Below, piece after piece: positions 2,320 through 60,351 of a stretch of DNA of 64,000 nucleotides. The notes beneath the pieces were generated by a model. That model was not told the origin of the DNA. It saw only the letters and a program-made list of their open reading frames with translations, and did not search any database. The position numbers and the translations under genes are program-made. Location: the IMG/VR virus record IMGVR_UViG_3300032174_000004, positions 1-64,000 of that record. One strand, given 5' to 3'. Source of the stretch: a virus. Numbering within the stretch: the stretch's first letter is position 1; the number at the start of each line of letters is the position of its first letter.

Positions 2320-2348
2320 AGTGTAACAGGATGCAACAGAATGTCACA
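2320..2348 (-). promoter_or_regulatory. promoter with tandem-heptamer operator (copy a)
   Basis: On the plus strand three heptamers, TGTAACA, TGCAACA and TGTCACA, start at 2322, 2332 and 2342, exactly 10 bp apart. Read toward the gene at 2296, the site gives -35 GTGACA (2347-2342), a 16-bp spacer and -10 TACACT (2325-2320). The predicted transcript start leaves a leader of about 17 nt containing GGAGGTCTC. The promoter is predicted from sequence only. Confidence 0.6.
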
Positions 2349-8634: not shown

Positions 8635-9305
8635 TTTTTCGCATCCGCCTCCCCAAGTAGCCCTTCAAACTGCCCCTCCAACGCCTCCAAATCTTTCATG
8701 GAGACCTTCGATAAATCGAAAGCGACATGTAAGTGACGATGGCGATGCTCCATGATGATTCTTTCATTGAAGAGCCCCAGTTTCTTCCCCAGCTTCTCCA
8801 AACTCCCATCTCGATCGCGGAACCGGTAGCGCGGAGCATCCGGCTCCCCGAAAACCTCGATCGCTATCATCTGCTCACGGGTGAGTTCGTCTAAACGCTT
8901 GCGACGCACTGTGACCTTTCCGTCTTTCCCTGTCTCAAAAGCCAAGTAGTCGTAATCATTCGCACTGGCGATCTGCGCAAGCTGCTGGACGACCCACTCC
9001 TCATCGACTGCAATAAGCTTCGCGGTCTCCTGCGCCATGTGTGCCTGGAGCCATTCGATGTAGTCCTTGTGATCCCGGACATACCCGTAGGAATACACCT
9101 TAGCCCATTTCTCACCGTAGCCAGCCTTCCGCGCTGCGGCCCGAATATCTAAGCCTTTGGCGACTCCCTGAAAGAATTGAAATAGCTTTTCTCCATCCGC
9201 GCCAGTTCTCGCTTTCGGCAATTTCCCAGGAAACCCGAACCGTAGATCCATCTCCGCGACTGGCCGCTTCGTGGCATTATTACTCGTTGTTGCATCTTGT
9301 TTCAT
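8631..9305 (-). CDS. terS: terminase small subunit
   Basis: A 224-residue protein. The N-terminal region (about residues 30-100) has helix-turn-helix character: QGVAKGLDIRAAARKAGYGE followed by KVYSYGYVRDHKDY, typical of the DNA-recognition domain of small terminase subunits (Terminase_2-like). The C-terminal part is helical and oligomer-forming in the family. It recognises packaging DNA and loads the large subunit. The start is uncertain: ATG 9305 lies inside operator copy b, and ATG 9251 has GGAG directly abutting it. The N-terminal residues of the long form are encoded by the operator. Confidence 0.75.
   Translation of the reverse strand: MKQDATTSNNATKRPVAEMDLRFGFPGKLPKARTGADGEKLFQFFQGVAKGLDIRAAARKAGYGEKWAKVYSYGYVRDHKDYIEWLQAHMAQETAKLIAVDEEWVVQQLAQIASANDYDYLAFETGKDGKVTVRRKRLDELTREQMIAIEVFGEPDAPRYRFRDRDGSLEKLGKKLGLFNERIIMEHRHRHLHVAFDLSKVSMKDLEALEGQFEGLLGEADAKK
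9278..9304 (-). promoter_or_regulatory. tandem-heptamer operator (copy b)
   Basis: On the minus strand: TGAAACA, TGCAACA and AGTAATA with exact 10-bp period. It lies 15 bp before the plus-strand gene at 9319, whose leader GGAGGTCTC-ATG matches those of other operator-controlled genes, and overlaps the possible start of the small terminase gene. No good -35/-10 pair fits here, and the operator-to-ATG distance is 11 bp shorter than in copy a. Confidence 0.55.
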
Positions 9306-9318
9306 CCGCGGAGGTCTC

Positions 9319-17591: not shown

Positions 17592-17767
17592 GGATGGCCC
17601 TTTGGGTTACGGTCTGTGATGGCGTGATTCGGAACCAGCTTGACGTATGTCGTGCCGAGCCGCTCGAATCTCACACGTGAGCGTTTCGGGTTGCGCTTCA
17701 GGACTTGACCTGGCCACTTCATACGACCGGCCCAGCCGTCTGTATGAACCCAAACCGCATCACTCAT
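17588..17767 (-). CDS. 59-residue basic protein
   Basis: Found by hand translation. ATG at 17767 overlaps the upstream stop and the stop overlaps the KTSC start, both as ATGA. Product starts MSDAVWVHTDGWAGRMKW, is basic, and has beta-strand/turn character suggestive of a small SH3-like fold. Function unknown. Confidence 0.7.
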   Translation of the reverse strand: MSDAVWVHTDGWAGRMKWPGQVLKRNPKRSRVRFERLGTTYVKLVPNHAITDRNPKGHP

Positions 17768-17979
17768 GCTTGTTTCCTAGCCATAAGAAGCGCGGCCTGA
17801 GTGCGGTTGACAACCCCTAACACCCTGAAGATGGCGGTGACGTGAGTTTTCACTGTCTTTTCCGAGCGTCCAAGTTCGAGGGCTATCTCTCTGTTCGTCT
17901 TGCCCTGACAAATGCCAGCGAGCACTCGCTCTTCGTGAGGGGTGAAGGCTCTAGTCGGCTTGTTGCTGCTTGCGTTCAA
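17764..17979 (-). CDS. LuxR-type helix-turn-helix peptide
   Basis: A 71-residue protein consisting almost solely of a GerE/LuxR HTH: FTPHEERVLAGICQGKTNRE, then IALELGRSEKTVKTHV and a C-terminal helix. No receiver or ligand domain is present. TTG start at 17979 overlaps the previous stop (TTGA) with GAGG 9 bases ahead. It lies in the operon behind operator copy c, so autoregulation is possible. It is the best regulator candidate in the window for the repeated operator (inference). Confidence 0.8.
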   Translation of the reverse strand: MNASSNKPTRAFTPHEERVLAGICQGKTNREIALELGRSEKTVKTHVTAIFRVLGVVNRTQAALLMARKQA

Positions 17980-18131
17980 TCCGTAAGATCCTCTGCGGAA
18001 AACAGCCAGCGCAAGAAAGCGTAGAAAAGGATCAATCCGACGACGCCCAGCGCCAGCCAGAAATTCATCAAGCACGCAACCAGGAGAATCGCCGAGAGAC
18101 CGCTGCGGATTATCTCTGCCGCTTTTTTCAT
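17976..18131 (-). CDS. 51-residue membrane protein
   Basis: Found by hand translation. ATG at 18131; start MKKAAEIIRSGLSAILLV, then one long or two short hydrophobic spans (LVACLMNFWLALGVVGLIL). The stop overlaps the TTG of the HTH gene. No Shine-Dalgarno: promoter copy c would begin transcription exactly at this ATG (leaderless). A membrane protein translated together with a HTH peptide may tether or antagonise it (speculation). Confidence 0.65.
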   Translation of the reverse strand: MKKAAEIIRSGLSAILLVACLMNFWLALGVVGLILFYAFLRWLFSAEDLTD

Positions 18132-18137
18132 GGTAGT

Positions 18138-18166
18138 ACTTTAGTCCTTGTTACAGCTTGTTGCAA
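18138..18166 (-). promoter_or_regulatory. promoter with tandem-heptamer operator (copy c)
   Basis: Minus strand: TGCAACA, TGTAACA, ACTAAAG at 10-bp spacing. -35 TTGCAA (18166-18161), 17-bp spacer, -10 TAAAGT (18143-18138). Six bases separate the -10 from the ATG at 18131, so the transcript would be leaderless. The site overlaps the last codons of the 50-residue gene upstream. Confidence 0.65.
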
Positions 18167-18293
18167 GCCCGCTCTCCCTCCTGTTTTGCGCTCTTCTAGG
18201 GTTAGAAGCGACTACCGAGTTCTCTCGCTGCAGAATCGTTGTCTCCAGTCTTCGCAGATCGACTGCGCGGCGGCGCTTGCGTGACTGGTTCAT
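18141..18293 (-). CDS. 50-residue basic hypothetical protein
   Basis: ATG at 18293 overlaps the helicase stop as ATGA. Very Arg-rich (MNQSRKRRRAVDLRRLETT), so it may bind nucleic acid. Its last codons are formed by operator copy c. Support comes mainly from the coupling; it could be a fortuitous frame. Confidence 0.45.
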   Translation of the reverse strand: MNQSRKRRRAVDLRRLETTILQRENSVVASNPRRAQNRRESGLATSCNKD

Positions 18294-19747
18294 TTGCGCT
18301 CTTCTTCCTGGATCAGGATCAGCGAGTGCTTTGCCCTGGTAGTTGCTACATAACAGAGGTTGGCCTCCTGTTGTTTCTGCCAGTCCTGCCGCGCCCACTT
18401 CGCAGGGCACCTGTCGCTGTTGAGCCAGTACACCGTGTCGGCTTCGAGGCCCTTCGCGCGATGGATGGTCGAGAGTACGACTGCCTCCGCAGAACCAGCG
18501 GAGAACAAACGCTCAATGGTCTGCATCAGCTCGCCGATTGTCCTGCTTGTCTCAGGCAACTCGTGTAGCAGGCACAGGATGGTCTCAACCTTGTCATCGA
18601 TCGCTTCCACCTTCGCCTCGTCCCCCTTCGCCCTGGCCTTTTCCTTCTCGCGCGTCCGGTAGGTCTCCAAGTTCGCTTCCAACTCGTTGACCGTCTCCGC
18701 GTGCATCCGCTTGATGAGCGATGTGAGGCCCTGACCAATCTCGCGACCCATGATTCGAGCGGCTCGACCATTGCGCAGCAGCCGGAAGGCGAGCGAGACG
18801 ATCGGCGCCGTAGTCCGGCAGATGATGAGATCATTGGGATTGAAATCAGATGGGCCCCACGCAGTACCGCGCGACTCGACACTGCCCTCTGTCGCGCCAG
18901 GTGCCGCGAGAATGTGGCTCACCCATTGCCTCGCGTGATTCACCACGCTTGTTGGGCAACGGTAGCTCACCGACAGCGGCAAGCGAGTGCACTGAAATTC
19001 AGACGCGATGAGGTTCATGCTGTCGCTGTCAGCACCGCGGAAGCCGTAGATAGCCTGCGCTGGGTCTCCCACCGCCATGATTCGCGACTGAGGAGTTAGG
19101 ATCTTGCGTAGCAGCGCGCGCTGAATAGCATTCGTGTCCTGCGCCTCATCCACGAACGTGAAGTCGTACTTCTGCAGCTCGATCCCATCGCGTACCGCGA
19201 AATAGAGCAAGTCATCGAAGTCGCACAGGTTGGACTTGTTGGACCAGCCGAGAAGCTCGCTCGCGAGCTCCACGGCCGCCTCAATCGTTGCGCCCTTCTT
19301 GTCCAACTGCAATTCGTGGTAGTCGACTAGCTCAAGCCAGTGCTCCGGCAGGTCGGGCAGCAGGCAACCGATCCCGCTCTGGCGGCCGAGGCTGACGAGC
19401 CTTGTGATGAACGGCCCGTACATCTCGGCGCGCGCACCCTCAAGGTTCTCGTTGACCAGCTTGCGCAGCTTGTTCTGTTCGATGTTGCGTACGCCACGGT
19501 CGCGGGTCACGGGCATGAAAGTGAGCGAGTGGAAGGTGCGGGCATTCACGCCGCGTGCCTTCAGCTCCTCAGCGATCGACTTGTTGAAGGCGAGAAGAAG
19601 GCTTGAGCCCTTCGCACGGGCCGAGCACTCCACCAGCGTGGTGGATTTCCCCGACCCCGCCACCGCCTCCACGATGGCATTCCCAGTCCCATTCTCGACA
19701 AAGTCGAAGATCCGTTCTTGGTATGTCGACCAAGTGCGAGTGAGCAT
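18290..19747 (-). CDS. SF1 UvrD/PcrA-type DNA helicase
   Basis: A 485-residue helicase, shorter than cellular UvrD (about 720). Walker A AVAGSGKST at about 28-36, FVDEAQDT near 205, GDPAQAIYGFRGAD near 230, a SYRCPTSV motif, TIHRAKGLE and VATTRAKHS near the end are all in the canonical order. It unwinds DNA during replication or recombination. First gene after operator copy d, with a GGAGGTCTCA leader before the ATG. Confidence 0.9.
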   Translation of the reverse strand: MLTRTWSTYQERIFDFVENGTGNAIVEAVAGSGKSTTLVECSARAKGSSLLLAFNKSIAEELKARGVNARTFHSLTFMPVTRDRGVRNIEQNKLRKLVNENLEGARAEMYGPFITRLVSLGRQSGIGCLLPDLPEHWLELVDYHELQLDKKGATIEAAVELASELLGWSNKSNLCDFDDLLYFAVRDGIELQKYDFTFVDEAQDTNAIQRALLRKILTPQSRIMAVGDPAQAIYGFRGADSDSMNLIASEFQCTRLPLSVSYRCPTSVVNHARQWVSHILAAPGATEGSVESRGTAWGPSDFNPNDLIICRTTAPIVSLAFRLLRNGRAARIMGREIGQGLTSLIKRMHAETVNELEANLETYRTREKEKARAKGDEAKVEAIDDKVETILCLLHELPETSRTIGELMQTIERLFSAGSAEAVVLSTIHRAKGLEADTVYWLNSDRCPAKWARQDWQKQQEANLCYVATTRAKHSLILIQEEERK

Positions 19748-19804: not shown

Positions 19805-20008
19805 CTACCGCTCCTCTCCCTTGCGCAGTCCCGCAAGCCATGCTTGCCACATCAACTCAAGCTCGATCCATCGATATTCGCCGCGCCGGTTGTGCGGCGC
19901 GATCACGCTAAACCGATCCTGTTCGTATCCAGGAAAGGCTTTCTCTACCCACTGCTCAAAGTGGGCGCGCGCTACCTCTTCGGAAAAGCCGTCACTGTAT
20001 TCAGCCAT
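19805..20008 (-). CDS. hypothetical protein
   Basis: A 67-residue acidic protein. The ATG at 20008 has GAGGA 6 bases ahead and overlaps the upstream stop by 8 bases; an earlier ATG at 20080 would overlap it by 80. MAEYSDGFSEEVARAHFEQW and a C-terminal MWQAWLAG match a common small phage layout (F-E-x-W ... W-x-A-W-x-A) of unknown function. Confidence 0.65.
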   Translation of the reverse strand: MAEYSDGFSEEVARAHFEQWVEKAFPGYEQDRFSVIAPHNRRGEYRWIELELMWQAWLAGLRKGEER

Positions 20009-20471
20009 CGCGTCCTCGTGCAAAGCAGCAATCGGCCAAAGTAACTTTTTCTTGTTCTGTGAAGTCTCGATATTCGCCAAGGGATTCGTCCCAAGGAGGA
20101 ACTACGCCGCACCAAACGTGCGTAATGGGGTTGGTCGATTCCGCCTGGCGAAGCGGTAACTGATGCTGATCGGAGGAAGAATGTTTGGTAGCGGCAGCAG
20201 ATAACCCAATCTGTCCAGGCCTTTGTGCCAACTTCAGCGCCTCAGTTGGGCTGACTGGCTTCTGGCCATGAGGAGCGCCGAGAATCCACGCGCGACGAGT
20301 TGCAGGCCAGTAGTCCACTCGGCGACGGCCAAATAGCCGAATGTGCATCGGGTAGATGTTCAACATCACGGGTTTTACTCCGCAGTGTTCACCAAGCCGC
20401 TTCAATTCCTGGAAGCAGTTCTCGTTGGCGACTGCTTTCCGTGCCCGTTGTTCAGGTGTGCGCTTCCCCAT
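20001..20471 (-). CDS. hypothetical protein
   Basis: A 156-residue protein (MGKRTPEQRARKAVANENCF). Basic N-terminal helix, central beta-like segment, acidic C-terminus. Leader GAGGGTCTCAATG resembles the operator-gene leaders. Its 5' side is the 430-bp gene-free segment. Not recognised. Confidence 0.65.
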   Translation of the reverse strand: MGKRTPEQRARKAVANENCFQELKRLGEHCGVKPVMLNIYPMHIRLFGRRRVDYWPATRRAWILGAPHGQKPVSPTEALKLAQRPGQIGLSAAATKHSSSDQHQLPLRQAESTNPITHVWCGVVPPWDESLGEYRDFTEQEKVTLADCCFARGRDG

Positions 20472-20478
20472 TGAGACC

Positions 20479-20538
20479 CTCTTACTTTCAATTCACTAGA
20501 AGAGCTTCTTACTCTAACTCTTCTTCTTCTCTTACTCT
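20479..20538. repeat. three pyrimidine-rich direct repeats (YTCTTACTYT)
   Basis: CTCTTACTTT, TTCTTACTCT and CTCTTACTCT start near 20479, 20506 and 20529, spaced 27 and 23 bases. They lie in the leader of the minus-strand gene at 20471 and in the gene-free segment. Could be iterons of an origin or a purine-rich leader on the transcript. Confidence 0.4.
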
Positions 20539-20553
20539 TATCAGGGGGTTTAA

Positions 20554-20650
20554 AGCCCATGGGACGGCAGGGACCACGGAAGGCCCCCCCAAACCCCCCC
20601 AGCCTTTAGCTGGGAGGAGGAAGGCCTCCAGATCCTGCGTCCCATGGGCT
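20554..20650. repeat. 12-bp perfect inverted repeat around a C7-AAA-C7 tract
   Basis: AGCCCATGGGAC (20554-20565) and GTCCCATGGGCT (20639-20650) are exact inverse complements; each also contains the palindrome CCCATGGG. Inside the 73-bp loop are two runs of seven C separated by AAA (20584-20600), G-rich on the minus strand and able to form a quadruplex-like structure. No coding frame is convincing here, so a structural or origin role is likely. Confidence 0.5.
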
Positions 20651-20782
20651 CATGGTCCGTATAGGTTCTTTCGACCGACGACGCACTTATTTAGCCTCGC
20701 ATTGCCGCTACGGTGTGAACCGCCCCCACGAGGACGCACGGCTGTGGAGCTGAGGGGCGGGGAGCGGGGAGCGAATTAGAGG

Positions 20783-20811
20783 TTGCAACAACCTGTAACA
20801 ACGTGCAGAAT
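20783..20811 (+). promoter_or_regulatory. promoter with tandem-heptamer operator (copy e)
   Basis: TGCAACA, TGTAACA, TGCAGAA at 20784, 20794 and 20804. -35 TTGCAA (20783-20788), 17-bp spacer, -10 CAGAAT (20806-20811). It points into a segment with no plus-strand gene, ending at the terminator at 20876; the product could be a small RNA of about 85 nt. Alternatively only the operator, not the promoter, matters here. Confidence 0.5.
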
Positions 20812-20875
20812 CTGGTTCTGCTGGCGTTGCGCCGCCGGCTGACCCGAGCCACTGCTACTCACAGTACTCGGCGTG

Positions 20876-20900
20876 AAACGCCTCCTCTCGGAGGCGTTTT
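20876..20900 (+). terminator. rho-independent terminator
   Basis: AAACGCCTCC-TCTC-GGAGGCGTTT, a 10-bp stem with 4-base loop, followed by T and GCGTTT. A second CGCCTCC at 20910-20916 can pair with the same GGAGGCG, so two mutually exclusive hairpins are possible. Could also end the minus-strand gene at 20905. Confidence 0.65.
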
Positions 20901-20904
20901 GCGT

Positions 20905-21102
20905 TTATACGCCTCCGCTTTCGCTCTCGGCAAGCTTTTTGCGAACGGCCATGTTGATCCAGTGCGTGAGGATTCCAGTCGGAGTCTGGATGATCCGCTC
21001 CTCATGGCCGCAGACGGCGCAGCGGTAATCGTTCTGGATTCGCCCTGATTTCAAGGGGATAGGCTCATGGCGCATGATCTGCCCGCAGTGGTACTCAGCC
21101 AT
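20905..21102 (-). CDS. small zinc-ribbon protein
   Basis: A 65-residue protein. N-terminal MAEYHCGQIMRHEPI and YRCAVCGHEER supply a Cys/His set for one zinc ribbon. Overlaps the upstream gene by 8 bases. Function unknown. Confidence 0.65.
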   Translation of the reverse strand: MAEYHCGQIMRHEPIPLKSGRIQNDYRCAVCGHEERIIQTPTGILTHWINMAVRKKLAESESGGV

Positions 21103-26091: not shown

Positions 26092-26096
26092 CTCGC

Positions 26097-31211: not shown

Positions 31212-34200
31212 TTAAGCAACATTTTCCTTGATTGTTTGGGCAAAGTAGTCGCGAGCCTGTCGGTCCGGCTCAAGAGGCAAAGAAGCAACGAGATCTGCCG
31301 TAGCAGGATAGCCTGCTTGGCGCATGGAGATAGATGTCTTGCGTCGGGCGGCCGCCGCTTTCGCTTTGTCCTGCCCCACGGTCGCCTTGGTCTGGTTCAT
31401 GCGCTTGACCGACTCGACATACTCCTTGGTGAGCTCGGCTGCAGTCGCTTTGTCACCCGACATCAGCGCTTTCTTGATCTTGTATTTCAGCTCACCAGTA
31501 TATTTCTGGTCCTGCTCGAGACGATCGCGACGCTCAAGCTGCTCAGGCGAGGTGATATAGCCAGGCGCCGGTGTCACCCCAATCATGGGCAACGCCTTCT
31601 TTACTGACGCCCCAAACCCAGAAGGCTGCTCTGTCGCCTGCATCTGTTGGCGTCCCTGCAACGAGAAAGGCGTCATCTCATGCGCGGCAAACTGCGCCTG
31701 TTGCAGTTTCTGGTGCCAATAGCTGGCCTCAGGGTCGCTGATCGGGTTGCCGAAGAAGTCCTGGTTCGAGTACAGGTTGCCGATCAGACTGAAAATCGGG
31801 TTCAGCTTGTTGACGATGGTCTGTCCAGGCCGCTGCGAGTACTCGTAGACATCCTTCACGTAGGATGGTAGCGAGACGCGCTCCGGCGTCCCGTAGTTCG
31901 TCGTGCCACCCGTGCGGGGGAAGAAGTAATCCTTCAGCTCCTGCGGTCCTTGGCCAGTTGCCATGTACTGGTAGATGGCCGAGTACAACGCCGTCGTGCC
32001 AGCCATCGCCAGCACGTAAGGAATCCGGTGCCCCAAGTCATCAGCGCTCACCTTGCCCGTGCGAATAGCCTTGTCGACGGCTTTCACCATGTCGATGGGC
32101 GCGCCGCCGATTTCGCGAACGGTACCCACGTTCCAGCCCACCGCGCGTATCCCTAGATGCAGTGAGTCTTTCATGGTCCGGTTCCAGAAGAGGTTGTCGT
32201 ACACCATCTCGCCCAACCGGTTGTCGACCGAGTCCCAGATTCGCTGCATCGCGGCCGCGCGATCGTTGGGGTCCTGAGTCGGGTTGCGCCGCAAGTGATC
32301 GGCCGCCAAGTCCGAGAACACCCCCAGCTTCTGCATGGGGACGAGGTGCTCCATGATCCAGGAGGTGGAGGCGCGCACTACCCGCATTGCCATCTCCACT
32401 GGGACTTCCATTTTTGGGGTCGTCTTCCAGATCTCCTGCGTCTCCTTCCAGAGCTTGTTGGCGTACTCGATCGGGAAATGCCCTAGAGCTCGACCCAGGT
32501 TCTGGATCTTGTCCTGCGGCGCGGTGAGCGCTTGTCGAATGTCGTTAGCAAGCGAGCGAACACCAACGCCACGGAAAGGACTCACGCCCTCTGCCGCCTG
32601 GTAGTAGCGATCCATGTGCGCGCGACCGCCGGCCATGGTGAGCATCTGGACCATCCGCTGCATGTCTGGGGTCGCGCCAGCCGGATTCGAGTAGGCCTGC
32701 AGCAGCTTATAGCCGCGGCGGACGTTCATGACCGCCCCGACTGGCGTAGCTCCCTCTACGAAGGAAGCCGCAGCCTTCCCGACCTCCCCATGGGCTAGCC
32801 GCTCGAGCGCCTGAGCGTTCTTCGAGATCATCGCATCGAGTGTCGTGAACCCTAGGTGGAACGCTGAGAAGCCAAGCTGCATGGCATTTAGCGCGTTGGC
32901 GCCACGGCGGAATATCTGGGCAGGCGCGAAGTCTCGGAGGGCCGAGGCCGACACGTGGTTATTAATCACTCGTGCCGCATCGATCGGCATGATGTACTGA
33001 CCGCGCTCGATGAAGCCGTTCTCCTCCTCCGACCAAGAACGGACTTTCGCAATGTTGTCGTTGATCGGACCCCAGCCATCTGGCATCGAGTGGCCAGCGG
33101 GTAGGAACTTGGCGAGGCCATCTTCCTTGAAGCGCCGCATGAGCGTGACGCCCGTCACGAAGCGCTGCATCTCGCGCGTCTTGAGCAGCGTCATGATGAG
33201 TGGGTTCGTGGTGAGCGGCGTGAGACCCGCGTCCATACCTTCCTTGATACTAGGGATAGTTCGCATCTTCAGGAAGGATGCCGGCCCACGCAGAGGACGC
33301 CGGCCCATGATGGAGGCCACCATACGTTGCGCCTCATCCGGGAAGCGCCAGTAGTGCGGGAAATAGTTCTCGATGAAGTTGTCGAGGTAGCCCTCGCCGA
33401 GGCCTTGTACCTTCCCGCGCCAGTCATCTAGCAGCTTGCGCATCGCATCCGCGACGGGCTGCATCTCAGGATTCGGCTGCTCTACCCCACGCTCGATCGC
33501 ATCCATCATGGCAAGTTGCTCAGGGATAGGAGTCTTATCGATCTCCCGTGAGAAGCGCTCTAGCGCTTCCTGCGTTTGTACCGTCTCGTGAGCAAGCTTG
33601 CCGAGAGCCTCTCGAGCGATTTGCGCGACTTGGCGTGACTCAGCGCTCATGCCTACTGGGTTGATCAGCTTGCGGAGATCGCGAACGCCTTTCGCTTCCG
33701 CAACGGCAGAGACTGCTCGACGAACGATCGGATATGCTCCGGGCTCGCGCTGCTCTTCAAGAGGCAATTCCTGCTGGCGCCGAGAGAACATCGGAAAGCC
33801 CTGGCTGAGGGCTGCTTGGCGAAGAGGTTCGGTAATGTCAAAGCCGTGTACGGGGATCGCTGTATCTGAAGGAGCGTTCGGCGATAGCGCCGCTTCGGTG
33901 GGATCAGGCCCTATTACCTCAGTACGCCCTACCTTCGCGCCGTACTTCTTGATGAGCTTGTCGGTCTCGCGGGGGAGGATAGAGTCATAAAACCCTTTCA
34001 TGCCAGACCCCCCGACATGGAGGTCCAAGCCAGATAAACTGCGTTCTGGAAACTTCTCGTTAGGATAGATCGAGGTGATCTGACCCTCACCTCTCTCCAT
34101 CTTTTCCGCGAGTTCCTGCCCTACATACTCTCCAACCTGCTCCTTAGTCATTCCCTTATTTTGCAGATCTGGTGCAGCAGACTGCCCATTTCTCTCCGCA

Positions 34201-37200
34201 TATAACCAGTACTTGCCGTCTTCATCGCGCGAATAGACGATGCGATCGATATGCTGCGCGAGGTTATATCGGTCTGCCTGCTGATCTCCGGTAGTCCAGG
34301 AGATGCGATCGAATCCGTTCTCCGCCGCGTGCCTGATCATTCGCTTCATGGCCAACATCGGCCAGGAGGTTTTGAAGGGAGCGGACGGTACCCCGACTTC
34401 ACCCTCAGTAAGCGCCTTTATTTCGTTTTGTGCATCCACCCATTCTTGCTTTTGCTCAGCAGTGACTGACTTGCCATGAAAGTCCCAGAGAAGTGCCTGT
34501 ATTTCGTCACGCCGCTTTACCAGCTCCGCAAGGCGCGCTTCCTTCTCTGGCCGGTATCCCTGCTTGCGGCCTACCTGATGCCAGTCCGATTGAATCTCTT
34601 CGAGGTGTAGAACCTTCTTCCCTTCAGAGTCGGTGCGCTCGTTGAAGCGGACGTGGGCGAGGATGTTGGGCTCGCGCCAGTGCCCAGATTTATAGATAGG
34701 CTGGAGTGCACCATGATGCTGGGTGGGCAATTGCAGTAAAAGCTCGCGGTAGTTCCCCCCGCCAGGTAGCGTGTACTCACCGTACTGCGTTCCGTCATTC
34801 TCAAGGTGAGTCCAGCCTTCCGGGCCTGCTGCACGCCGAGTGCGCTCATCTCCCACGCGAGTAGAGATGTTGTTTAGCTCCTCGACATCGGAGCGAAGAG
34901 AATCTGGTAGCCGCTCCATATCGTCCGTGTTATAGCTATAGTGACGCGATTCAATGCCGTCACCGTCCTCTCCACGTACTCCGATGTGATCTAAATATCC
35001 CTCATCAGTGAATGTGATTTGATGGCCTTGCGCTCGGAGCTTTTCAGCTAGTTGTATCTGGGCGCGCTCGTCTTCTGTTTGTTCAGCAGAATCGATGCGT
35101 TCCCCATGAACCGTTTCCTGCAGCTCAAGCCGATTCGCGCGCACGTAGTCAGCGAGTTCTTCCTTGGTGACTGGACCTTTATGGTCCTTTAGCCAGTGGT
35201 CTAAATTTAGCCACTCAAGTTCCTCAGGCTTGACTCCAGACTGCTTCTTGAGAGTTGCTAGCCATTGTTCAGCGGAGGCCTTCCCCTGCTTGCTCTCACT
35301 GATGGCGCGCTCAACGGGCGAGTAGAACATCGGCGCGCGCTGGGAGCGTGGGGGTTCGCCAGGAAGCGTTCCAGCGGTCCCACCCTCAAGCGCAGTGCGC
35401 GCCTGCTGGATCAGTCCCGCGATCGCCTTGTCATCGTAGAAGGGTTTCCCCCTCATCTTAGAGAAGAATGCCTTCACGGCGCGGACAGCGCGCTTCCAGT
35501 ACGGAAGGACTGGCTTGTCGATGGGCTGGCCGGAGAGATGCTGACCGGCCGCATAGGCAATCACTTCCTCTGCAGCAGCGCGGCGTTGGTCAACGTCACT
35601 GACATCGAGCCCGTTCCTCTGGGCCGCCGCCTGCACCCGCTCCGGCATATCTCGGTTGATCCCATCCATGACTGCGTTATATGTTGGCCTATCCATCGCC
35701 AGTCGGAGACCGTGATGACCCACCGCCTCGTGCCAGAGATTCTCGCGCACCTCACGCTCACTCCCGTTGTTGCCGGCAATGAGATGGATGCGATCTGCGC
35801 CCGGATCGTAGACGGCGCCTGTCAGGCGTTCCGCGCCCTGCTGTTCAACGAGGCTCTTGATAGATTGTGGAAGAGTGGACACATCTTGGTGCACCTCGAC
35901 GTGCGGAAAACCGGCGACGAGGTTAGCTTCTCGTATCGTTTGGTGAACGATGCGCTGGACGTGAGCCAGCGGGAGGCCTGACGTCGTCCCCTCGGTCCTA
36001 CGGTACTTCGATTCCTTTCCCCATTTGTCAACGAGGAGCACCGACTTGGGCTGGCCAGGTCCCTCGCTAAGACGTACTGCCTGTTTACCGGCTGCTCGAG
36101 CTTCATCGACCGCTTTGTCTACTGCGTCTGGATTTCCGGCATATACATCTTGGGCCGGCTCGTAGATATCGTCGGAAGCTAGCTTGAGCCGCTTTATCTC
36201 ATGGTCTTGACCAGACTGAGTGAATTGGCGCGCGAACTCCTTCTCTGGTGTATAGAAGCCGCCACCAGCGTTGCGAACATTTTCCCCGCGGTAAAGCGTC
36301 TCAGTCTTACGGTGGGAAAACTTCGGCTCTACTTCCTTTTCGGAGCCGGCGGGAGGGTGACCTTGGTTATCTTGCCGCCCTGCTTCGCGAGCTCGGATAG
36401 CCGATCCGGGAGGCGCCTGGCCGCGCGCAGCGCGCTCTCCTTGGGCTTCTCTTCTCGCTTTGTGGGCACTGAGGGCGGCATCGGCTTCTTGAGCGTTCTT
36501 ACCTACGCCGTAGGATACTCCGAATCCCTTCAGTTCAACGACTCGGCCGTCAGGCATCGTCACTTCGATCTGTGCGCCCTTCAGGTGCTCCTGAATGCGG
36601 CTCATCAGCTCGTGCGCTTCCGTCTCAGTATGGGTCTGCGCGGCGAACTCATCCCCTGAGATGTGGTAGGCCTCGTCGGTATGGCGCGCGAGCGCGGTCC
36701 CAATGGCTTTCAGCAGCATGTCCCCCGACTCATGGCCCATCTCATCGTTGACCCATTTCAGCGAGTCAACGTCGATCGCCACCTGGTGGGGAAGCTTCTC
36801 GGCTTCCTGATAGGCCCGACGGTTTGGGATGCCAGTGAGCTCGTGGGTCAGCAGCGCAGCGCGCAATTGATCTGGGGTCATCTCTTTGACCCGACCTCGA
36901 AGCGCCGTATCTACGCGCCGGTCAACGCGTTCCGCTCCAGGAACTGCGCGGTTTGTGTTTCCTGAATCCAGCCACTCCTTGAACTTCTCAGTAGGCATCT
37001 CGGCGATTGAGCCCAAGCCCCGCCACCCCTTCGGGTAATTTGCGCGATAGACCGCCTCGGCTTCCTGTTGAGAGTCAGCACCCAGAACTGATTTGTGCTC
37101 GTCCAGCTTGCCCGTAGCTGGATCGATTTGATTGATGACGAAGACTTTACCGGTATCTGGCTTGCCAGTGAGAAAAGCATCCACTGCATCCCCATCCTTG

Positions 37201-39533
37201 CCCTCAGTCCCCTTCACATAGCCATACGTGTGGGACATTTCCCTGGACCATGGCTTGCCATCCGGGCCAATACCTGAGCGCGTAGAGCCTTTGGGGTTCT
37301 CGATCGCGACCTTCATTCCCGCGAAATCGACAACGCCCTTTTTGTACGTCCCGGCTTGCTTCTGCCCTTCGGTGGGCGCCGTATTGGTCTGCGCCTCAGC
37401 GCGCGCTAGGGCTTCTTGGAAGCTTTCTTCTTGGCCTTGCGGTGCGCCTTGAGCCTTTGCAGGTTCTTCAGTACCGCCGCCTGGAGTTTGCTGTTTTTCG
37501 GATCCACGGGCGATTATGGACTCAAGCTCACCGCGAACGCGAGCGATCGTCTCTGGGTGATCGTCATTCCAGCTATCGAGCGTCTGGACGGTTGCCGCGC
37601 GATCGTGATCGCTTGCCCGGCTCGCCAGCAAGGTGAGATCTAGCGCCCCTTCTGGCTGCTTATCCAGATCCGGTACCGCTTCCCGCAGCTCCGCATGCCT
37701 TTGGTTCATGGCGGTGCGCTCGTCGTGCACCTGCGTCATGAAGTCGATCATCGACTGCTCACGGGCCTTGAGCGGCTGCCCAGCGAGCGCCTTGTCGACC
37801 GCATCGTGCACCTGGCTCTCCGTAAGCCCCTTCGGGCGATCTGGCCACCAGTCGGCGCGTGGGAGCCACTTGGTGCGGCCTACCACCTCATCCGTGGTGG
37901 CGTCGCGGATGACCCGGCCCCCTTCCTCCGCCCATCCAGTCTCATCCTTCATGGCGGTTAGGCCATCTCGGAGGTCCTGGTCGGTAGCGAGACGGTGCTC
38001 TGGAGTGCCGTCTTGAGGGCCCTGTGGATGCACCACGCCGTCACTGACTTCCTGGTTCAGCTGTGTTAAGCGACGCCGGCCAGCGGGGAGGAAGATCGGC
38101 TCATTCAAGTCATTGCGCTTGATCAGCCCCAGCTTCTCCAGCATGTCGGCTTGCGGAGGGGTAATCGACTTATCCTTCAAGGCTAGTAGCGCGGCATGCT
38201 CGGCAGAACTTGGTTGCGACCCTTGGGAGCTGCTGGTAGCAGCTTCGGGCGCTTCGGAAGATTTCTCGGCGCTTTCAGTAGGTTGAGTCTCAGTCGAGGT
38301 GGGGTGGACAGTGGTAGCACCTTCACCTGCCTCAGTGTGTGTCTGTAGCACAGTTGGCTTCGGCGTCCGCGACGTTGCCGCATGGAAGGCTCCCATTGGG
38401 GCTCCTACCACGCTTCCGACCAGCCCCGACCACGCGACCTGCTTGAGCGCCTCATCGAGCGGCAAATGCTGGTTGAGCACCCCTGCATCGATCCCCTGCT
38501 GGAGAGCATTCACCACACTTTGTGTAACGCCCTGAGCCGCCGCAGTGCCGGCGACTTTGCCCACTCCAGTCTGTGCGAGCTTGTCACCCACCACACCGCC
38601 GATGATTTTGTTGGCAAGAGGCGTGTTCTCAACGATCTTGAGGACTGGAACCTCCGGTACGCTCGAGGCGAGGGTAGACAGCACTGCGTAGGTGCTCGCT
38701 GTATCGTGATCTAGTCCCTTATTACGTGCCGCCGCGTACTCATTCGGCGCGATATCTGCGGCCATGACGGCGGCACCACCGACGCCCCCTGTTGCTACTG
38801 TCGCACCGACCCCAGCCAAGATGTCTGGCGACATGGTTGCGGCATCAAATACGAGCGCCTTGAGCGAATGGTCATCCATGTGCGGCGCGTAAATCTCCTG
38901 GACCTGCTGCGCCGTGAGTCGCCGCTTCGTGCCAGCCTCCATCTGCGCGCTGCCAGTCTGTAGCCGATCGCGCTGCTTCGACTTGAATTGCTCAAGCTGC
39001 TCCTGGGACTGATTCACGTATGTTGGCCAGTCGCGAGTAAACGTGTCCGGCCGAATCCCAAGGTGCTCAGCGGCGCTTTGGACCTCCGGCATATCAGTCA
39101 GCGCCGCCCCTTGCTTCTGAGCGTCTCGGACCGCTTGTGGGAGCACGGTGGCCTGCCAGAACTTCTTGCGGGCGTCATCGTAGGCGCTGTGGCCTAGGTA
39201 CTCCTGAGCCCCCGCGATCTTCGTCTCAATGCCAGCACCGATGGCAGTCGGGATCCCGCGGGCCACATCGCTCCAGGAAGCCGGTGGATATTCCCGCTTG
39301 GCACTGACCGTGACCTCAGGCATCTGCGCCTGGTCGGTGACGTCCTGCATGCGGGAAGCCGTCGTGTCCGCCGCAGACGGGCTATCCATCTGGTCCAATG
39401 GATTCCCAGCTGGATGGTCGTCGAGGTCGTCTAGCGGATTCCGTTGAGGTGTAGGCGCGCTCGCCAGCGCCGACATAGGAAGTGCAGGGGCGCTTGCTGC
39501 GTCATCAAGGGCGTCAAGTGGATTCGCTGCCAT
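31212..39533 (-). CDS. giant polyvalent internal virion protein with GGDEF-like domain
   Basis: A 2773-residue protein, by far the largest gene. Order of parts, rough residues: 1-420 Ala/Ser-rich with hydrophobic helices; 730-860 an inorganic-pyrophosphatase-like domain of phage polyvalent proteins (AIENPKGSTRSGIGPDGKPW, GYVKGTEGKDGDAVDAF); 880-1045 a GGDEF-like domain (LTGIPNRRAY, AIDVDSLKWVND, ISGDEF); 1075-1175 ADP-ribosyltransferase-like segment (YRGENVRNAGGGFYTP); 1190-1370 a zincin-like region with HEAVGHHG near 1266; 1440-1870 a large polyvalent-associated region; 1900-2773 helical, with a possible membrane span near 2516. Such proteins are packaged and injected with phage DNA. Domain names are by motif; the last 870 residues are unassigned. 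Confidence 0.85.
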   Translation of the reverse strand: MAANPLDALDDAASAPALPMSALASAPTPQRNPLDDLDDHPAGNPLDQMDSPSAADTTASRMQDVTDQAQMPEVTVSAKREYPPASWSDVARGIPTAIGAGIETKIAGAQEYLGHSAYDDARKKFWQATVLPQAVRDAQKQGAALTDMPEVQSAAEHLGIRPDTFTRDWPTYVNQSQEQLEQFKSKQRDRLQTGSAQMEAGTKRRLTAQQVQEIYAPHMDDHSLKALVFDAATMSPDILAGVGATVATGGVGGAAVMAADIAPNEYAAARNKGLDHDTASTYAVLSTLASSVPEVPVLKIVENTPLANKIIGGVVGDKLAQTGVGKVAGTAAAQGVTQSVVNALQQGIDAGVLNQHLPLDEALKQVAWSGLVGSVVGAPMGAFHAATSRTPKPTVLQTHTEAGEGATTVHPTSTETQPTESAEKSSEAPEAATSSSQGSQPSSAEHAALLALKDKSITPPQADMLEKLGLIKRNDLNEPIFLPAGRRRLTQLNQEVSDGVVHPQGPQDGTPEHRLATDQDLRDGLTAMKDETGWAEEGGRVIRDATTDEVVGRTKWLPRADWWPDRPKGLTESQVHDAVDKALAGQPLKAREQSMIDFMTQVHDERTAMNQRHAELREAVPDLDKQPEGALDLTLLASRASDHDRAATVQTLDSWNDDHPETIARVRGELESIIARGSEKQQTPGGGTEEPAKAQGAPQGQEESFQEALARAEAQTNTAPTEGQKQAGTYKKGVVDFAGMKVAIENPKGSTRSGIGPDGKPWSREMSHTYGYVKGTEGKDGDAVDAFLTGKPDTGKVFVINQIDPATGKLDEHKSVLGADSQQEAEAVYRANYPKGWRGLGSIAEMPTEKFKEWLDSGNTNRAVPGAERVDRRVDTALRGRVKEMTPDQLRAALLTHELTGIPNRRAYQEAEKLPHQVAIDVDSLKWVNDEMGHESGDMLLKAIGTALARHTDEAYHISGDEFAAQTHTETEAHELMSRIQEHLKGAQIEVTMPDGRVVELKGFGVSYGVGKNAQEADAALSAHKARREAQGERAARGQAPPGSAIRAREAGRQDNQGHPPAGSEKEVEPKFSHRKTETLYRGENVRNAGGGFYTPEKEFARQFTQSGQDHEIKRLKLASDDIYEPAQDVYAGNPDAVDKAVDEARAAGKQAVRLSEGPGQPKSVLLVDKWGKESKYRRTEGTTSGLPLAHVQRIVHQTIREANLVAGFPHVEVHQDVSTLPQSIKSLVEQQGAERLTGAVYDPGADRIHLIAGNNGSEREVRENLWHEAVGHHGLRLAMDRPTYNAVMDGINRDMPERVQAAAQRNGLDVSDVDQRRAAAEEVIAYAAGQHLSGQPIDKPVLPYWKRAVRAVKAFFSKMRGKPFYDDKAIAGLIQQARTALEGGTAGTLPGEPPRSQRAPMFYSPVERAISESKQGKASAEQWLATLKKQSGVKPEELEWLNLDHWLKDHKGPVTKEELADYVRANRLELQETVHGERIDSAEQTEDERAQIQLAEKLRAQGHQITFTDEGYLDHIGVRGEDGDGIESRHYSYNTDDMERLPDSLRSDVEELNNISTRVGDERTRRAAGPEGWTHLENDGTQYGEYTLPGGGNYRELLLQLPTQHHGALQPIYKSGHWREPNILAHVRFNERTDSEGKKVLHLEEIQSDWHQVGRKQGYRPEKEARLAELVKRRDEIQALLWDFHGKSVTAEQKQEWVDAQNEIKALTEGEVGVPSAPFKTSWPMLAMKRMIRHAAENGFDRISWTTGDQQADRYNLAQHIDRIVYSRDEDGKYWLYAERNGQSAAPDLQNKGMTKEQVGEYVGQELAEKMERGEGQITSIYPNEKFPERSLSGLDLHVGGSGMKGFYDSILPRETDKLIKKYGAKVGRTEVIGPDPTEAALSPNAPSDTAIPVHGFDITEPLRQAALSQGFPMFSRRQQELPLEEQREPGAYPIVRRAVSAVAEAKGVRDLRKLINPVGMSAESRQVAQIAREALGKLAHETVQTQEALERFSREIDKTPIPEQLAMMDAIERGVEQPNPEMQPVADAMRKLLDDWRGKVQGLGEGYLDNFIENYFPHYWRFPDEAQRMVASIMGRRPLRGPASFLKMRTIPSIKEGMDAGLTPLTTNPLIMTLLKTREMQRFVTGVTLMRRFKEDGLAKFLPAGHSMPDGWGPINDNIAKVRSWSEEENGFIERGQYIMPIDAARVINNHVSASALRDFAPAQIFRRGANALNAMQLGFSAFHLGFTTLDAMISKNAQALERLAHGEVGKAAASFVEGATPVGAVMNVRRGYKLLQAYSNPAGATPDMQRMVQMLTMAGGRAHMDRYYQAAEGVSPFRGVGVRSLANDIRQALTAPQDKIQNLGRALGHFPIEYANKLWKETQEIWKTTPKMEVPVEMAMRVVRASTSWIMEHLVPMQKLGVFSDLAADHLRRNPTQDPNDRAAAMQRIWDSVDNRLGEMVYDNLFWNRTMKDSLHLGIRAVGWNVGTVREIGGAPIDMVKAVDKAIRTGKVSADDLGHRIPYVLAMAGTTALYSAIYQYMATGQGPQELKDYFFPRTGGTTNYGTPERVSLPSYVKDVYEYSQRPGQTIVNKLNPIFSLIGNLYSNQDFFGNPISDPEASYWHQKLQQAQFAAHEMTPFSLQGRQQMQATEQPSGFGASVKKALPMIGVTPAPGYITSPEQLERRDRLEQDQKYTGELKYKIKKALMSGDKATAAELTKEYVESVKRMNQTKATVGQDKAKAAAARRKTSISMRQAGYPATADLVASLPLEPDRQARDYFAQTIKENVA

Positions 39534-59628: not shown

Positions 59629-60315
59629 TCAGACTTCGAAGCGGTTGAGCTTCGTGCGATTCGCTTTGATAGGTAGGTACTGCAGGTTCTCCAAGACATG
59701 AAGTCCGGAGATCCTTTTTCCTTTCAGAGGTACGATGTGATCGACCTCGTGACCAGGAGGGCAGTTGATATAGAACAGGTGAATGGCCTTCATGTCGGCC
59801 CACGGTGGCGTCGCGATCTGGACGCGCGTACGCCGAGCATTCCGCCGCGCCCGTTCTACGGTGTGATTCGCGAAGTAGTACCCGTTGTGGTAGCAGTTCG
59901 CGCACAGATCCTTGGCTTTGCCCTTGCCAGTTGGCATGCCGCATTTCGCGCAGACAGCCGCCACGCGCTTCGTTTTGTTCACAGTGGGGTCGCCGTGCTT
60001 CCATACGCGGCGCTGATGGACATTGCACATTCCGTTTGAGTGTAGCGGTCGATCGCAGCCTGCAACCGTACATGTGCCACGAGAGGCAATCGTGCGCTCT
60101 GGGGTATAGCAACCGAAGCGCCGTCCCCATTTCATTTGGCAACGAACGTTGCAAAAGACTGTCTGCGGGCGACGCCCAGCGAGATCTCTCTCGCAGAACT
60201 TGCAAGTCTTCGCTTCTAACCCATGCTTGCCTTCCCTGGCCCGCGTGTAATGAAGCTTGCACAGCCCTTTGCCGTAGTGCTTGGCGCTGCAGTTCGTGGC
60301 TGTGCAAGTTCTCAT
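59629..60315 (-). CDS. HNH endonuclease with several zinc fingers
   Basis: A 228-residue protein. Four Cys/His groups (CTATNCS, CKFCERD, CNVRCQ, CAKCG) precede the HNH core NCPPGHEVDHIVPLKGKRIS plus LHVLENLQYLPIKAN. Inserted between the capsid gene and the next late gene, with its own promoter (operator copy h) and terminator. The predicted transcript starts one base before the ATG, so the message would be leaderless. Confidence 0.85.
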   Translation of the reverse strand: MRTCTATNCSAKHYGKGLCKLHYTRAREGKHGLEAKTCKFCERDLAGRRPQTVFCNVRCQMKWGRRFGCYTPERTIASRGTCTVAGCDRPLHSNGMCNVHQRRVWKHGDPTVNKTKRVAAVCAKCGMPTGKGKAKDLCANCYHNGYYFANHTVERARRNARRTRVQIATPPWADMKAIHLFYINCPPGHEVDHIVPLKGKRISGLHVLENLQYLPIKANRTKLNRFEV

Positions 60316-60322
60316 TCATCTG

Positions 60323-60351
60323 ATATTACGCTCTGTTACAGGTTGTTGCAA
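60323..60351 (-). promoter_or_regulatory. promoter with tandem-heptamer operator (copy h)
   Basis: Minus strand: TGCAACA, TGTAACA, CGTAATA at 10-bp spacing. -35 TTGCAA (60351-60346), 17-bp spacer, -10 TAATAT (60328-60323). The transcript would start at 60316, one base before the ATG of the HNH gene. Best -10 match of all copies. Confidence 0.7.

Follow-up and report, generated by a model that had tools for sequence, protein, structure and literature searches.

The gap at 20472-20904, which lies between two minus-strand genes in the open reading frame (ORF) list, raises the question of whether it holds a replication origin, a small RNA, or both. We addressed this question in a window of 64,000 nucleotides, bases 1-64000 of a 68,635-base IMG/VR virus record. 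The first-pass annotation had called the gap the longest gene-free stretch, a ranking that is not established: other uncalled stretches are similar in size or larger, and some of those left uncalled by our crude codon-usage caller hold real genes. The gap is best read as two separate elements on opposite strands, a small RNA in its right part and a set of repeats with a hairpin in its left part (20472-20660). The right part (20763-20907, plus strand) consists of a promoter motif, then a predicted RNA, then an intrinsic terminator, and the promoter points right, into a convergent block of leftward-read genes:

20763..20798, plus strand: block found by local alignment to be alignable with the relative G001, GCGGGGAG...GGTTGYAACAACC
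20783..20811, plus strand: predicted sigma70-like early promoter of the small RNA, TTGCAA-N17-CAGAAT, a motif shared with other gene starts and with relatives
20784..20800, plus strand: two TGYAACA elements at 10-bp spacing, the first inside an odd-spaced, operator-like inverted repeat, GGTTG-CAA-CAACC
20818..20905, plus strand: predicted noncoding RNA of about 87 nt with two hairpins and a terminator, ends given to within a few nt
20876..20899, plus strand: intrinsic terminator hairpin AAACGCCTCC-TCTC-GGAGGCGTTT followed by TGCGTTTATA, with a perfect 10-bp stem and a 4-nt loop
20905..21102, minus strand: convergent gene for a Cys/His-containing protein of 65 aa, its stop codon abutting the terminator

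The predicted RNA folds with an MFE of -45.9 kcal/mol (z -5.2), which none of 200 shuffles equals. It agrees with an earlier proposal of a transcript of about 85 nt without a notable ORF: our estimate is about 87 nt, and the codon-usage caller finds no ORF with coding signal in it. Plus-strand ORFs of 159 and 81 aa across the gap were ruled out as genes, having no coding signal. The terminator claimed downstream of the promoter is present, with its perfect stem and a TTGCGTTTATA-like tail in which the T-tract is interrupted (TTTTGCGTTTATA), and it is one of two sites in the window that pass the stricter of our two terminator criteria. A generic promoter/terminator scan listed neither the gap promoter, whose -10 (CAGAAT) is mediocre, nor its terminator. 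Searches for known RNA families yielded no Rfam match at gathering score across the whole window, with sub-threshold chance matches only at the locus and in the relatives; those to microRNA and sRNA families were rejected as lying below threshold and covering the hairpin or terminator alone. No tRNA or tmRNA was found. At the sequence level, the right part has what characterizes a phage-encoded stand-alone small noncoding RNA, namely its own promoter, an intrinsic terminator, and no ORF. We consider it with good confidence to be a genuine noncoding RNA gene, and the RNA is presumably made.

The promoter copy that had been noticed in the gap is one of 5-7 within the window. It is composed of TTGCAA (20783-20788), a 17-bp spacer, and CAGAAT (20806-20811), and the same motif precedes RecT (22467, plus strand) and genes at 26096 (plus strand), 18147, and 60332 (both minus strand), with a looser copy at 9276 (minus strand; 9276-9310). 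The window's aligned motif copies share the 17-bp spacer when read as TTGCAA-17-(-10). In the gap, the TGYAACA repeats, 10 bp apart, span the -35 and the spacer; 10-bp-phased TGYAACA also occurs in the copies at 9276, 18147, 22467, 26096, and 60332, often within an inverted repeat of odd spacing (e.g., GCTTG-CAA-CAAGC). Since the motif also recurs in both relatives described below, and judging from its positions, we infer that in this phage group it serves as an early promoter or an operator. A further TGYAACA-N3-TGYAACA site at 2322-2338 (plus strand) has a poor -10 and occupies a gap of 47 bp from which no gene reads rightward; it may be solely an operator or else start a second antisense transcript. 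Allowing for composition, the fold at 60221-60340 (plus strand), near the promoter copy at 60332, ranks second in stability within the window.

Profile scans with RecT, a 134-aa protein, an SF2 helicase, and the capsid yielded just two complete syntenic genomes, both from IMG/VR and reached via RecT: G001 (67,283 bases) and G002 (64,768 bases), each collinear with the window when inverted. The promoter motif is absent from 16 capsid-sharing records, and a RecT search of bacterial genomes yielded distant matches alone. Relatives found through the helicase (L003-L013, Nipunavirus) have the helicase alone in common and were set aside as uninformative on the gap; with those of Nipunavirus (Queuovirinae), the helicase to the left of the gap shares 61-63% identity, but synteny stops at this gene. 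The best portal matches, to phages such as CRP-901 and HTVC023P, reach only 31-38%. Elsewhere in the window, a protein of 2773 aa (31212-39533, minus strand) joins an inorganic-pyrophosphatase domain (PF18823) to a GGDEF diguanylate-cyclase domain (PF00990, residues 899-1026), a pairing that is unusual for a phage giant protein. Both syntenic genomes carry a candidate unit at the site that corresponds to the gap:

L020:4016-4155, in G001: TTGATG-17-TACCAT, an RNA of about 105 nt, and a terminator
L022:2334-2482, in G002: TTGTGT-16-TAGAAT, an RNA of about 115-120 nt, and a terminator

The G001 terminator runs up to the stop codon of a gene of 66 aa, placed like the 65-aa gene of the window and 32% identical to it in protein sequence; in G002 the neighboring convergent gene differs and ends about 60 bp away. 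The predicted RNAs of G001 and G002 fold with z scores of -4.1 and -4.2, each better than all 200 shuffles, with part of the excess over shuffles attributable to the terminator itself. Terminators that pass the stricter criterion number two in the window, two in G001, and one in G002, and include the RNA sites of the window and of G002. The chance of finding one within 130 nt downstream is about 0.1-0.2% (at 1-2 sites per genome), and that for the G001 RNA terminator, which fails the stricter criterion and is one of eight sites under the other, is about 1%; both criteria were set after the sites were seen, so that these odds are indicative.

The ends of the unit are conserved. The block shared with G001 scores 33 against 14.3 +/- 2.5 in 500 shuffles, none as good, and a 3' end of the form GGCGTT...TTTATAC is common to all three phages and aligns above shuffles. 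The RNA bodies align no better than shuffled sequence among the three phages; the comparison comprises three genomes with unalignable bodies, and hence no covariation test. The conservation that the first-pass annotation had named as a check is found for the unit of promoter, RNA, and terminator, present in two of two syntenic relatives, and is not found for the RNA body, the repeats, or the hairpin. This recurrence of a promoter, a short structured RNA, and a terminator at a syntenic site, with conserved ends, supports the small-RNA reading.

We hypothesize that the early promoter, which recombination genes and further early genes also have, would start rightward transcription at about 20818, and that the intrinsic terminator would stop the transcript about 87 nt on, at the tail of the convergent leftward gene block. 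If leftward transcription crosses the gap, as we assume, a leftward transcript running past the 65-aa gene would be complementary to the RNA, whatever the sequence, and leftward expression into the variable island to the left could be trimmed by RNase III, cutting that transcript, or by converging polymerases interfering with each other. Because complementarity to leftward read-through holds for any sequence, the body could drift freely under a kept promoter and terminator, and such drift beside a convergent gene makes a cis effect likelier than a trans-acting sRNA. Against a cis effect, the antisense overlap with coding sequence is not conserved, as G002 shows. We judge a stand-alone noncoding RNA gene acting in cis to be the best explanation overall, with about an even chance of being correct, and action in cis as such, by antisense or by convergent transcription, to be evenly poised or slightly short of that. 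Somewhat unlikely, in our estimate, is a stronger version: nothing but the promoter, the terminator, and a place at the edge of the accessory-gene island would be kept by selection, the body would be freely replaced, and the function would lie in the production of the RNA or in its complementarity in cis.

In phage lambda, OOP is an RNA of 77 nt that overlaps cII at the 3' end of its coding sequence. Similar to OOP and its promoter pO, the unit described here would produce a short RNA of similar size from its own early-region promoter, stopped by an intrinsic terminator and running against an early transcription unit. Precedents for a cis effect are provided by lambda oop, which is antisense to cII (PMC12197685), and by pO, a convergent promoter acting on pR that also works through convergent transcription (PMC3985674). 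Unlike OOP, the RNA overlaps the 65-aa gene by a few nt at most, ending at its stop codon, and in G002 the neighbor is a different gene some 60 bp off; because this falls short of a substantial overlap, we do not file it as an OOP-type antisense RNA. No cII, O, or P gene was recognized in this phage. Another likeness is to the RNA-based origins of extrachromosomal cluster A mycobacteriophage prophages (Alma, LadyBird, and RedRock), which are likewise intergenic phage noncoding RNAs in compact genomes; those origins adjoin parABS and are required for prophage replication (PMC7157519), whereas no partition genes were recognized in this phage.

The absence of a conserved body could also be expected of a small RNA that acts in trans, pairing with host or phage mRNAs, with a body tuned to the host or target of each phage. 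A stand-alone unit of early promoter and terminator with 5' hairpins is the usual layout of such sRNAs, and the G001 RNA displays UCCUCCC, which resembles an anti-Shine-Dalgarno sequence, in a hairpin loop. However, the three relatives have no conserved loop or seed, and the best duplexes with start regions of the phage's own genes are no better than those of shuffled RNAs; in target prediction against phage start regions, the sole strong match for G002 was the complement of the RNA itself. We consider action in trans unlikely. Less likely still is that the right part is a regulatory spacer only, in which the promoter copy is mainly an operator or titration site, the terminator insulates the convergent block, and the RNA is a by-product. 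The unconserved body, the resemblance of the TGYAACA repeats to an operator array, and the plus-strand copy at 2322 without an obvious downstream gene are consistent with such a spacer, but all three RNAs are more structured than their shuffles despite differing sequences, even if the terminator itself contributes in part. We retain the noncoding RNA gene acting in cis as the preferred reading of the right part.

The left part of the gap is read in the opposite direction, together with the genes beyond it:

18290..19747, minus strand: UvrD-type helicase (Pfam/PHROG), absent from G001 and G002, in a window-specific island
20001..20471, minus strand: 156-aa gene, the first left of the gap, with AAGAGGGTCTCAATG ahead of its start
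20479..20538, minus strand: three AGAGTAAGA-type repeats (YTCTTACTYT on the plus strand), a purine-rich leader into the start of the 156-aa gene
20554..20650, minus strand: 97-nt GC-rich hairpin with G7-TTT-G7, with 44 pairs including 8 G-U on the minus strand

Three YTCTTACTYT repeats had been described; we find three exact copies (20479-20488, 20506-20515, and 20529-20538), the sole ones in the 64 kb (chance mean 0.16; none of 100 shuffles reaches three). The inverted repeat is perfect as claimed, with C7-AAA-C7 between its arms, although the arms are 13 bp rather than 12 and lie 71 rather than 73 nt apart (20554-20566 and 20638-20650). As RNA, the hairpin has an MFE of -79.1 on the minus strand (z -5.8, vs. 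-2.8 on the plus strand) and is the lowest GC-adjusted fold among 6392 stretches of 100 nt in the 64 kb. When its arms are aligned, G-T combinations occur six times and A-C never, which hints weakly at action as a leftward RNA. Both hairpin and repeats are absent from G001 and G002 (no repeat copy in either), and the 156-aa gene has no homolog in phage or IMG/VR searches or in these two genomes. Gene content at about 17.6-20.7 kb differs in all three collinear phages, and this stretch, with the repeats, the hairpin, the 156-aa gene, and the UvrD helicase, is an accessory island. The repeats and hairpin look like the leftward 5' mRNA leader of a window-specific UvrD-helicase module, in which an element for RNase III or for mRNA stability is the plausible, ordinary reading of the hairpin; a leftward terminator is unlikely, with only three U behind it. 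The island also encodes a 103-aa LuxR/GerE-type HTH protein (17764-18075, minus strand) downstream of the promoter copy at 18147, and the island of G001 contains, by eye, Gp37/Gp68-like and adenine-methylase-like reading frames. A recurrent ribosome-site sequence, GAGGTCTC(A)ATG or GAGGGTCTCAATG, precedes several gene starts (e.g., 20472 and 22516) and is also found in G001.

The locus had further been named a candidate origin. On such a reading, transcription from the promoter would prime or activate replication, the repeats would be iterons, and the hairpin would provide a single-strand start site. Although the repeats are iteron-like, lie where the sequence is comparatively rich in AT (at 58%, one of the highest values for 100 nt), and adjoin the strongest fold for its composition, and although RNA-dependent phage origins exist (PMC7157519), we regard an origin as very unlikely, since an iteron origin would have its repeats kept in relatives and an initiator gene, while here repeats and hairpin are missing from both syntenic relatives, the repeats lie in the leader of a window-specific gene, no initiator was recognized among the proteins scanned (part of the gene set), and no extremum of cumulative GC skew is shared by the three genomes. 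Within the window, the slope of the GC skew becomes flatter around 20-21 kb, and AT skew tracks gene strand.

The unit in the right part of the gap delimits a gene-exchange island and is of a kind missed by protein-gene annotation. If the RNA is made, this uncultivated phage group would possess an early noncoding RNA whose promoter and terminator outlive its sequence, favoring cis-acting transcription over seed pairing. Should selection indeed keep only the ends and position of the unit, the transcript of a replaceable body perhaps controls the expression of newly acquired genes.
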